Positions 26,034 through 44,434 of a stretch of 64,000 bases of DNA are shown here, piece by piece (position 1 is the first letter of the stretch; each line of letters starts with the position of its first letter). The position numbers were made by a program, and so were the translations under genes. The notes under the pieces are model-generated. The model searched no databases. It saw only the letters and a program-made list of their open reading frames with translations, and had not been told where the DNA came from. Where the stretch lies: contig JAGORO010000004.1 in the NCBI GenBank assembly GCA_018062785.1, positions 1 through 64,000 on the forward strand, in the 5' to 3' direction. The stretch comes from Candidatus Saccharimonadota bacterium (GTDB taxonomy: Bacteria > Patescibacteriota > Saccharimonadia > Saccharimonadales > UBA4665).

Positions 26034-26138
26034 GCGGCGCTTGGCGGCCGCACGAGTGCGCAAGCGCGAGCATGCGGTAGCGTGGTGGAAGAGGCAATTC
26101 CGAATTTAGTTCGGAATGCCAGAGAGGGGCGAGCCCCT
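26034..26138 (-). repeat. three-hairpin intergenic element, copy 1
   Basis: Downstream of trxB on the same strand. Hairpin A is AGGGGC-TC-GCCCCT (26125-26138), hairpin B pairs GGCATTCCGAA with TTCGGAATTGCC around a 5-nt loop (26093-26120), and after 41 GC-rich nt hairpin C pairs GCGGC with GCCGC (26034-26051). Hairpins A and B are 4 nt apart. The same order and spacing occur at 43240-43333. It could act as a terminator or RNA-stability element, or be a small mobile palindromic repeat. Confidence 0.7.
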
Positions 26139-26148
26139 TATTTACCTA

Positions 26149-27081
26149 TTACCCTTCGAGGTATTCGCGGATTTTTAGGGCGGCGGTGGCACCTTCACCG
26201 GTTGCCGAAGCAATTTGCATGGTGGCACCCGAGCGAATGTCGCCAGCCACAAAAACGCCTGGCATGGATGTTTGGAGATTTTTGTCCGACTTAATGAGTC
26301 CAACTTCATCGAGTTCAACTGCGCCATTTAGAAATGCGCTATTGGGGCTTAGCCCTACAAACACAAACACACCATCTGTCTCGAATTCTACTTTTTGGCC
26401 TTCGTGAGTGCCGATGACCTTTTTTACCATGCCGTCTTGGCCGACGATTTCGTCGGTCGTGGTAGCTAAGTGTACAGTGATCTTATCGGCATATTTTTCA
26501 GCCAACTCCTTTTGGAGTATTTCGCTAGCGCGCAGTTTGGAGCGAACAAGTAAGTCAATATGCGAGGTAAACCGTGTCAAGAACATTGCCTCTTGTACAG
26601 CCGAGTTTCCACCGCCGACTACCACCAGTCGCTTGTCGCGGTAAAACGCACCGTCGCACGTGGCACAGTAGTGAACGCCTCGAGCATAGTATTCTTCTTC
26701 GCCCGGAATGCCGAGCTTCTTGTACTCGCTACCGGTGGCAATCAACACTGCTCGAGCATATATATCACCGCTTGTCGTCTCCATTCGCTTCCATTCGCCT
26801 TCGTCATGCAAAGCCGTCACTTCCGCTGGCTCAATGACTGCACCAAACCGCTCGGCTTGCGCCTGAAGGTTCTGTGCAAGCGTTAAACCCTCGATACCCT
26901 CTGGAAAACCAGGATAATTATCGACCATGTCGGTAATGGCTGCCAAGCCCCCGGGTATAGCCTTTTCGAGTAGCAATGTCTCGACATCTTCACGGGTAGT
27001 ATAGATAGCAGCACTCAGAGCCGCTGGACCAGCGCCAATTATGACTACTTGGTGTTGGTTCTTTGCTGTCTGATCGCTCAT
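26149..27081 (-). CDS. trxB: thioredoxin reductase
   Basis: A 310-aa low-molecular-weight thioredoxin reductase that passes electrons from NADPH to a thioredoxin-like partner. The FAD motif is VVIIGAGPAALSAAIYTTRE, the redox-active pair C139/C142 lies in HYCATCDGAFYRDK, the NADPH motif is VVGGGNSAVQEAMFL and the C-terminal FAD site is GVFVAGDIRSGATMQIA. The ATG at 27081 has GGAG upstream; the longer frame to 27276 lies within the FemX gene. It follows the FemX-like gene by 1 nt. The glutaredoxin-like protein nearby is a possible substrate. Confidence 0.96.
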   Translation of the reverse strand: MSDQTAKNQHQVVIIGAGPAALSAAIYTTREDVETLLLEKAIPGGLAAITDMVDNYPGFPEGIEGLTLAQNLQAQAERFGAVIEPAEVTALHDEGEWKRMETTSGDIYARAVLIATGSEYKKLGIPGEEEYYARGVHYCATCDGAFYRDKRLVVVGGGNSAVQEAMFLTRFTSHIDLLVRSKLRASEILQKELAEKYADKITVHLATTTDEIVGQDGMVKKVIGTHEGQKVEFETDGVFVFVGLSPNSAFLNGAVELDEVGLIKSDKNLQTSMPGVFVAGDIRSGATMQIASATGEGATAALKIREYLEG

Positions 27082-42658: not shown

Positions 42659-43174
42659 GTGGCACGATTTATAAGACTATATAATTCCCCAAATCCCGAG
42701 CAGCCTGGTTCGGTGCTTGGCTTTAGCAGGGGCATAAGCGAAGCAGCCTACGACCCTTTTTTACACAAAAGATTGAAAAATCTCGGCTATCTCGTTACCC
42801 AGGAAAGCACACGGCAAAAGGAGTGCCACATAAAGTTACCATCACCGCCAAAGAACTTAGTTAGGCTGCAACTCGGTCTACTCGGTATCAGCGAAATACA
42901 GCTGAGTATGCTCGCAACTAGTTACGTTGTACCAACTCCAGAATATTACGATGCTCCTGGTATACCCATTCCCGAAGAAACTGTCTCTGTAACGCATCTG
43001 TTAGTCGAGCCACCACTTAAAAATGAGGATGTGGGAGTTGTGGCGGACTGCCTTCGATCTCTGGAGTCAGTGTATGACGCCGGCCTCAGGCAACACTACT
43101 TCATCGATAATCGTGAGGCTATGCCAAAAGCAGAAAACGCCGAACAAGGCTCTATAATAGCTTTCTGGAATTAA
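42659..43174 (+). CDS. hypothetical protein, 171 aa
   Basis: A soluble protein starting at a GTG 3 nt after the mutase stop, so it is probably co-translated. It shows VLGFSRGISEAAYDPFLHKR, LKNLGYLVTQES and a proline-rich VPTPEYYDAPGIPIPEE stretch. No family recognised. Its stop codon TAA is the first part of a 59-bp repeat copied from the end of rmuC, so the original C-terminus may have been altered by that duplication. Confidence 0.68.
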   Translation: MARFIRLYNSPNPEQPGSVLGFSRGISEAAYDPFLHKRLKNLGYLVTQESTRQKECHIKLPSPPKNLVRLQLGLLGISEIQLSMLATSYVVPTPEYYDAPGIPIPEETVSVTHLLVEPPLKNEDVGVVADCLRSLESVYDAGLRQHYFIDNREAMPKAENAEQGSIIAFWN

Positions 43175-43229
43175 TCGTCGGAGGTGGGCTTGTCGAGGAG
43201 GAGTGGTTCTACGCTGTTGGTGGTGTCGG
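43171..43229. repeat. 59-bp direct repeat, left copy
   Basis: An exact copy of 43358-43416, which is the 3' end of rmuC including its stop codon. It starts at the stop codon of the 171-aa gene. The two copies are 187 nt apart, start to start, and bracket the three-hairpin element. Confidence 0.95.
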
Positions 43230-43239
43230 GATTGATAAA

Positions 43240-43333
43240 AGAGGGGCACGCCCCTCTGCTGAGGTATTCGAGGTAAATTCGAATACCTTGCACTCCCCCG
43301 TCTCGCTGCACTCGCGATTTGGCTAACGCCAAA
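43240..43333 (+). repeat. three-hairpin intergenic element, copy 2
   Basis: Hairpin A is AGAGGGGC-AC-GCCCCTCT (43240-43257). After 4 nt, hairpin B is AGGTATTCGA, a 7-nt loop and TCGAATACCT (43262-43288). After 29 nt, hairpin C is TTTGGC-TAAC-GCCAAA (43318-43333). Order and spacing match copy 1 at 26034-26138 while the arms differ in paired fashion. It lies between convergent genes and inside the 59-bp direct repeats. Confidence 0.75.
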
Positions 43334-43357
43334 CAAAATTGCCGAGCGTATCGCTAC

Positions 43358-43416
43358 TTAATCGTCGGAGGTGGGCTTGTCGAGGAGGAGTGGTTCTACG
43401 CTGTTGGTGGTGTCGG
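43358..43416. repeat. 59-bp direct repeat, right copy (end of rmuC)
   Basis: Identical to 43171-43229. This copy is the functional one, encoding the last residues of RmuC and its stop codon. Confidence 0.95.
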
Positions 43417-44434
43417 CAATTTTAACCACTTCTTTGTCGATTTTGCCTAGGGACTTATGGGCGGCATTGTAGTGGTTGACAGTTGTGCCCAATGTGTTGC
43501 CAAGCTTTTGCATGTACGTCTCGTGGGCGGCAATGTGACGGCCAAGTTCGCCAACTCGCTTCTGAATGTCTTTGGCCTGCTGCTCAATCTGTAAAGACTT
43601 GAGGCCTTGCATGACCGTTTGTAAGTATGCAAGCAATGTCGTTGGGCTGACAATAATCACCTTTTTGTCGATAAATGCATACTCTATAAGATCACGCGAA
43701 TTCGTACCGGTCGAGCCAACATTGTTTACAAGCAAATCGTAGTATATCGCCTCGCTAGGGATGAACATAAAAGCGTAATCGAGTGTATTCTCGCGTGGGC
43801 GAATGTATTTGCTCGTTTCGTCGATCCGGTTTTTGAGGTCGGTTTTGAATGTTTTTACCAATACCTCCCGTTGGGTCTTGTCTTTTTCGTCGATGAGGCG
43901 GTTGTAGTTCTCTAGTGAAAATTTGCTGTCTATTGGGAGAATCCGATTTTGATCAAGCTTGATGATAGCATCGACGATTTCGCCGTCCTTAAACTTATAT
44001 TGAGTCTCGTAGATATGCGGCGGCAAAACGTTGCCCAGTACTGTATCGAGGTAGTATTCGCCGAGGCCTCCGCGCTGCTTAGGGTTCTGTAGCACGTTCT
44101 GCAGGGTTTTGAGCTCGTCCGCAACGTCGACAACACGTTTGTTGCTGTCCTTTAACTCGGTTAAGTTACGTGTAATCTCGGCGATGATCTTGTTGCTCTC
44201 ACTGCTTTGCTTTTGCAAGGCGCCCATCATTGTGGCCTGAGACTTGTCTAGTCGGTCACTTATTTGCCCTTGCATACCATCTTTGAGCCTAGTGATATCC
44301 TCGGACAGCGCACGCAAATCCTCCTTGAGAAGTAACGCACCCTCTGAGCCGCTAGATTTGCGGGTTAATGCAAGAATAAGTGCCCCCAAAAGCACAAGAA
44401 CTGCCACTGCAAGAATGCCTACCACCATTTCCAT
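43358..44434 (-). CDS. rmuC: RmuC family DNA recombination protein
   Basis: A 358-aa RmuC-like protein, a nuclease-fold factor that limits inversions and rearrangements at repeats. It has an N-terminal membrane helix (residues about 4-25), a coiled coil (about 30-115) and the RmuC core with GGLGEYYLDTVLGNVLPPHI and YKFKDGEIVDAIIKLDQNRI, then LPIDSKFSLENY. The stop codon lies in a 59-bp sequence repeated just beyond the gene. TATACT ends 6 nt before the ATG. Confidence 0.94.
   Translation of the reverse strand: MEMVVGILAVAVLVLLGALILALTRKSSGSEGALLLKEDLRALSEDITRLKDGMQGQISDRLDKSQATMMGALQKQSSESNKIIAEITRNLTELKDSNKRVVDVADELKTLQNVLQNPKQRGGLGEYYLDTVLGNVLPPHIYETQYKFKDGEIVDAIIKLDQNRILPIDSKFSLENYNRLIDEKDKTQREVLVKTFKTDLKNRIDETSKYIRPRENTLDYAFMFIPSEAIYYDLLVNNVGSTGTNSRDLIEYAFIDKKVIIVSPTTLLAYLQTVMQGLKSLQIEQQAKDIQKRVGELGRHIAAHETYMQKLGNTLGTTVNHYNAAHKSLGKIDKEVVKIADTTNSVEPLLLDKPTSDD

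Follow-up and report, generated by a model that had tools for sequence, protein, structure and literature searches.

A dispersed intergenic palindromic repeat of Saccharibacteria that is probably a mobile element

Two copies of an intergenic element

The window, that is, the whole stretch of 64,000 nucleotides analysed here (positions 1 to 64,000 of contig JAGORO010000004.1 of a Candidatus Saccharimonadota bacterium), contains two copies of a previously unnamed repeat with a total length of about 100 bp, which is dispersed between genes (Table 1). Copy 1 follows trxB, an ORF with its stop at 26149, and lies 8 nt beyond this ORF. It is recovered at G000:C17:26082-26140, minus strand (E 2.8e-13), by R1, a covariance model of seven copies that encompasses hairpins A and B and the C-rich linker. 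Copy 2 lies between a gene for a 171-aa protein (42659-43174) and rmuC.

Table 1. Features of the two copies and of their immediate surroundings
Feature	Position	Strand	Sequence or remark
Copy 1, whole	26034..26149	-	AT-rich left end, hairpin A, hairpin B, linker, variable C region
Copy 1 AT-rich left end	about 26141-26149	-	extends up to the trxB stop codon
Copy 1 hairpin A	26125..26138	-	AGGGGCTCGCCCCT; sequence and pattern search
Copy 1 hairpin B	26093..26120	-	GGCATTCCGAA-CTAAA-TTCGGAATTGCC; sequence; folds on both strands
Copy 1 C-rich linker	26081..26092	-	TCTTCCACCACG; sequence; aligned in A3
Copy 2 left direct repeat	43171..43229	+	dead duplicate of the last 59 nt of rmuC
Copy 2 AT-rich left end	43230..43239	+	10 nt, GATTGATAAA, between left direct repeat and hairpin A; family-wide AT-rich boundary
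Copy 2 hairpin A	43240..43257	+	AGAGGGGCACGCCCCTCT; sequence, folding
Copy 2 hairpin B	43262..43288	+	AGGTATTCGAG-GTAAA-TTCGAATACCT; sequence, folding
Copy 2 linker	43289..43301	+	TGCACTCCCCCGT; R1 core stops at 43300
Copy 2 variable C region	43302..43357	+	not alignable to copy 1
Hairpin in copy 2 C region	43318-43333	+	TTTGGC-TAAC-GCCAAA
Copy 2 right direct repeat	43358..43416	-	functional rmuC 3' end (rmuC ORF 43358-44434, minus)

In all copies read, hairpin A (GGAGGGGCNNGCCCCTCC) precedes hairpin B, after which come the C-rich linker and a third part that varies. The original prediction had located hairpin A correctly in both copies, at 26125-26138 (minus) and 43242-43255 (plus), and had missed the linker, CTCCTCCCCC, as a conserved part of the element. 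Hairpin B is a stem around TTCGAA-nTrAA-TTCGAA with the conserved tip GAARTRAATTC; in the window it comprises 11 bp with one bulged T and the loop CTAAA in copy 1, and 11 bp with the loop GTAAA in copy 2. The linker is usually followed by TAAAGC and then by hairpin C, which is a variable module. Positions -9 to -1 before hairpin A are 66-85% AT, as against about 49% further out, with A at position -1 in 82% and no fixed tetranucleotide across the nine positions. As this AT-rich stretch is sharply delimited, the left end of the element is probably formed by these approximately 9 nt.

Several further readings of the architecture were set aside. Hairpin A has no T-tract in either direction and T-runs follow hairpin C in few copies, which does not correspond to a canonical intrinsic terminator. 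An alternative pairing of the linker with the A arm, acting as an RNA switch or terminal repeat, gave a weak signal (complementarity of 4.88 for own pairs vs 4.73 with shuffled partners, with 8/500 shuffles as high). The motif CTCGCTGCGCTC of the C region is not a separate repeat, since the genome of the window (G000) has just 5 YTCGCTKCGCTC sites, 4 of them within the direct repeats of two copies. Contigs C13 and C6 of the same genome also contain a repeat of greater length (about 190-297 nt; identity 98-99.7%; L014:1517-1813, L111:717-1013 and L112:698-886), which includes a variant copy with GGGGAGGGCTCGCCCTCCCC as hairpin A along with additional conserved non-coding sequence, and which has distant relatives at L003, L016, L021, L022 and L116; it is possibly a composite or parent element.

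Copy number and phyletic spread

The 14-mer AGGGGCNNGCCCCT occurs at 10 sites in the 862 kb (0.86 Mb) genome G000 and the reversed-pattern control at none, which places the motif far from chance expectation. R1 detected about 14 strong copies in this genome (best E 1e-14) and 2-29 copies in five of six congeners, so that the element is present in six of the seven genomes of the genus; the same model found no copy in the remaining congener, G006, nor in the 53 other genera searched. A richer covariance model of 53 sequences, R2, recovered scattered copies elsewhere in the family, and in the class as a whole 35 of 393 genomes and 14 of 153 genera have matches. A DNA pattern scan of named genomes further uncovered the full architecture in Saccharibacteria/Patescibacteria MAGs, such as UBA6664, UBA2952 and UBA2951, with the consensus GGAGGGGCTCGCCCCTCC-GCTTC-(hairpin B)-CTCCTCCCCC-TAAAGC-(variable hairpin), and the seven such MAGs tested with R2 have 4-20 copies each. 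In G001 and G003 the element forms tandem arrays with a period of 91-109 bp.

Pattern matches in Clostridia, Sphingomonas and Chloroflexi were rejected as members of the family: they differ by eye, and R2 had no match in either of the two such genomes examined outside the Saccharibacteria, which included one Clostridia carrier. Among viral contigs the pattern scan gave a single match, with a different structure. Rfam models, at gathering and permissive thresholds, had no match in the window, and at the loci only a neighbouring tRNA exceeded its gathering score; a literature search within openly accessible papers turned up no account of a repeat of this kind in Saccharibacteria. Both outcomes agree with the original prediction that no named family matches, and the covariance-model search of Saccharibacteria genomes that had been suggested there as a check yielded many further copies in relatives, with the arms of hairpins A and B paired.

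Position relative to genes

A same-sense gene has its stop codon close to hairpin A (-4 to +14 nt) in about 30 copies, including copy 1 at trxB. Ten copies (L078, L086, L087, L088, L098, L281, L282, L297, L298 and L323) end close to a tRNA gene on the opposite strand, 6-13 nt from its mature 5' end, which implies that they inserted at the RNase P site or in its immediate vicinity. Across all copies there is no orientation bias relative to genes, same-sense and antisense contexts being similarly frequent by simple ORF calls as opposed to curated annotation.

Flanking direct repeats

Copy 2 is enclosed by a perfect 59-bp direct repeat of the 3' end of rmuC (43171-43229 vs 43358-43416, 59/59 identical), which had escaped the original prediction; the extra rmuC tail was also recovered by tblastn. 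The first bases of the left duplicate supply the TAA stop of the upstream 171-aa gene, and prior to the insertion this gene and rmuC, which are convergent, probably shared a TTAA. In six congeners rmuC is present and is followed neither by the element nor by a second rmuC tail; no exactly syntenic empty site was found among them, because the neighbours of rmuC differ there. Copy 2 is a lineage-specific insertion at rmuC.

Comparison of the 250 nt before with the 250 nt after each copy revealed direct repeats scoring at least 30, the threshold used, in 17 of 116 copies, with no score between 13 and 32; control positions gave none in 560 (0/400 in the window and 0/160 in the same loci), and most copies are without a detectable direct repeat. 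Eight of the 17 are situated in the tandem arrays of G001 and G003, where the repeated sequence is mostly the C module or the adjacent unit. The other nine loci duplicate adjacent sequence of 36-115 bp, in eight cases with a gene tail (copy 2, 59 bp; L002, 102; L004, 115; L019, 36; L113, 72, decayed; L115, 57; L285, 57; L294, 59; L302, 61). In eight of these loci a gap of 7-11 nt, in agreement with the independently delineated AT-rich boundary at -9, separates the end of the left repeat from hairpin A; in L019 the gap is 0 nt. Wherever a gene is recognisable (8/8 loci), it lies on the C side and on the opposite strand, and the duplicated piece includes its 3' tail; in L294, L302 and copy 2 the repeat starts where the stop codons of two convergent genes overlap.

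As read from these sequences, the one-sided choice of gene would speak for later template switching as the origin of the repeats, and the shared stop codons for their formation at insertion. Under the former account, the hairpins would stall the replication machinery and a switch of template would carry a copy of the C-side flank over to the A side; the direct repeats would then be secondary, with the element still being a dispersed palindrome. We regard this as possible, though on balance doubtful. A simple target duplication does not predict that the C-side flank is copied in all eight gene-linked cases, which counts against insertion-made repeats; furthermore, the right repeat end (+74 to +116) is better defined than the start, and the C module itself is duplicated in arrays. 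However, the upstream convergent gene in copy 2, L294 and L302 takes its stop codon from the left repeat, an arrangement most simply understood as the ancestral junction.

Candidate enzymes

Three families, DDE_Tnp_1 (PF01609), RVT_1 and Y1_Tnp, were searched for, and none could be tied to the element: DDE_Tnp_1 and RVT_1 are absent from G000, whose single Y1_Tnp (RAYT) gene has other palindromes around it and no adjoining copies. RAYT-like Y1_Tnp genes are present in all seven genomes of the genus, with 1-2 per genome in five of them and 4-5 matches in G001 and G003. In the four congeners that were read at recA, such a gene lies beside it (L121:1114-1752 on contig C14 of G000, L122, L123 and L124), and these genes have short palindromes of their own on their flanks, for example AAGGGTCCGTCCCTT and GGGAGGACTGTCCTCCC.

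A REP/REPIN-type element moved by the host RAYT, a Y1 tyrosine transposase, would account for small intergenic palindromes of variable copy number, for the ubiquity of RAYT-like genes in the genus and, through single-strand hairpin recognition, for the conserved hairpin tips. We nevertheless consider this unlikely and rejected RAYT as the cognate enzyme: R1 found no copy in the retrieved flanks (mostly 1-2 kb) of 14 Y1_Tnp places, the RAYT genes read being accompanied by other palindromes, and G006 has RAYT and no element. Long flanking direct repeats are also at odds with insertion of the IS200/IS605 type, which to our knowledge makes no target duplication. In addition, the element has no unpaired GTAG or CGTC tag, a hallmark of REP elements (PMC3733652).

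Derivation as a MITE from an insertion sequence with long, variable target duplications, like IS1634/IS1549 (PMC2266710), appears quite improbable. The direct repeats of 36-115 bp at nine loci, if they were made at insertion, would fit this in both length and variability, and TTAGGAGGGG vs CCCCTAA bears a weak resemblance to terminal inverted repeats; yet the complementarity of A arm and linker covaries weakly, the right end is variable, and G000, which holds the freshest copies, has no DDE_Tnp_1, so that an IS4/IS1634-type DDE transposase was discarded as the mobilising enzyme. Retroposition by an encoded reverse transcriptase was likewise discarded, with RVT_1 in only one of the seven genomes of the genus, at contig C157:658-1257 of G001 (L143).

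Covariation and the question of RNA or DNA

Folded as RNA, both window copies are more stable than their dinucleotide shuffles, with z-scores of -2.5 and -5.3. The first seven sequences show double changes in 7 of the 17 pairs of hairpins A and B, with 10 doubly changed cells (0/500 shuffles). With 53 copies 94% of cells are paired and 14 of 17 pairs are doubly changed, giving 144 cells (0/500 shuffles; slid versions at most 40), and with another 62 copies, which come almost entirely from other genomes and lie outside the set used to build R2, but were aligned by it, all 17 pairs are doubly changed, giving 196 cells (0/500 shuffles); in these counts the shuffle statistic is the number of cells, relatedness is imperfectly controlled for, and the two large alignments were fitted to the model. 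The palindromes are real. The original prediction that the arms of B and C change and yet stay paired holds strongly for B, as well as for A, and is weaker for C, which is not alignable between the window copies and gave no clear covariation signal in a MAFFT alignment across relatives.

Covariation alone cannot separate an RNA from DNA palindromes, because selection or template-switch repair can keep the arms of a DNA palindrome complementary. A stem selected as RNA on the modelled strand should favour G-U mispairs; A-C is at least as frequent there (G-U 15 vs A-C 27 in alignment A3, and 19 vs 37 in A4), and the covariation is accordingly no proof of RNA. A structured RNA (an sRNA or 3'-UTR element) co-transcribed with the upstream gene, one of the two options originally raised, is very unlikely: the strong covariation and the roughly 30 copies close to same-sense stop codons are in its favour, but it is contradicted by the unbiased orientation, the want of a G-U excess, the ten copies next to opposite-strand tRNA 5' ends and the genus-mate that is wholly devoid of the element.

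A probable mobile palindrome and its significance

The occurrence in either orientation to genes, the mispair counts and the flanking repeats favour a mobile DNA palindrome over a 3' RNA. The other option of the original prediction, a small mobile palindromic repeat, gains support from copy number, patchy spread, the lineage-specific copy 2 and the flanking duplications. We consider it likely that this intergenic palindromic repeat of Saccharibacteria is a mobile, non-autonomous element that is mobilised in trans. A trans-acting enzyme would recognise the A/B hairpins, possibly in single-stranded DNA, and the target would be duplicated when the element inserts at breaks lying far apart, or through some equivalent copying step, so that it could settle between closely packed genes and leave them intact. 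Any putative host role, such as protection of mRNA 3' ends, would be secondary.

Genomes this small and streamlined are expected to rid themselves of repeats. A palindrome that is present in at least 14 genera of Saccharibacteria, lies between abutting genes and leaves long duplications is a marker of recent mobility, and raises the concrete mechanistic question of which enzyme moves it and how duplications of 36-115 bp arise. More tentatively, it may represent an approximately 100-bp non-coding mobile family of ultra-small epibiotic bacteria with an undescribed insertion route, which copies a gene tail of 36-115 bp and is harmless between abutting genes, in a genome with neither DDE_Tnp_1 nor reverse transcriptase. 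As some Saccharibacteria can be cultured and manipulated (PMC10633639), the question of the enzyme and of the duplications is testable.

Comparison with known systems

The element shares with REP elements and REPINs (PMC3116915) and their RAYTs the short, multi-copy, intergenic palindromes with complementary arms and a patchy distribution among relatives. It differs from them in its length of about 100 bp, its three hairpins and long flanking direct repeats, and in having neither the unpaired tag nor an adjoining RAYT gene. With IS1634/IS1549, which produce direct repeats of 8-514 bp on insertion by an unknown mechanism (PMC2266710), it has in common nothing but direct repeats that are long and variable in length; those are, however, full insertion sequences with a DDE transposase and terminal repeats, whereas the element is non-coding and such a transposase is absent from G000. 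An abundant GTAG-tagged REPIN, GTAGGGGAGGGGCTTGCCCCTCCCG...CGGGAGGGGCAAGCCCCTCCCCTAC, in which GTAGGGGAGGGGCTTGCCCCTCCCG recurs inverted, is found in MAGs of Oscillospiraceae and other Clostridia (L148-L150, L156-L172 and similar loci). Its hairpin is near-identical in sequence to hairpin A, but it consists of two inverted GTAG-tagged hairpins and has no hairpin B; the hairpin core common to this REPIN and hairpin A of the element is probably convergent.
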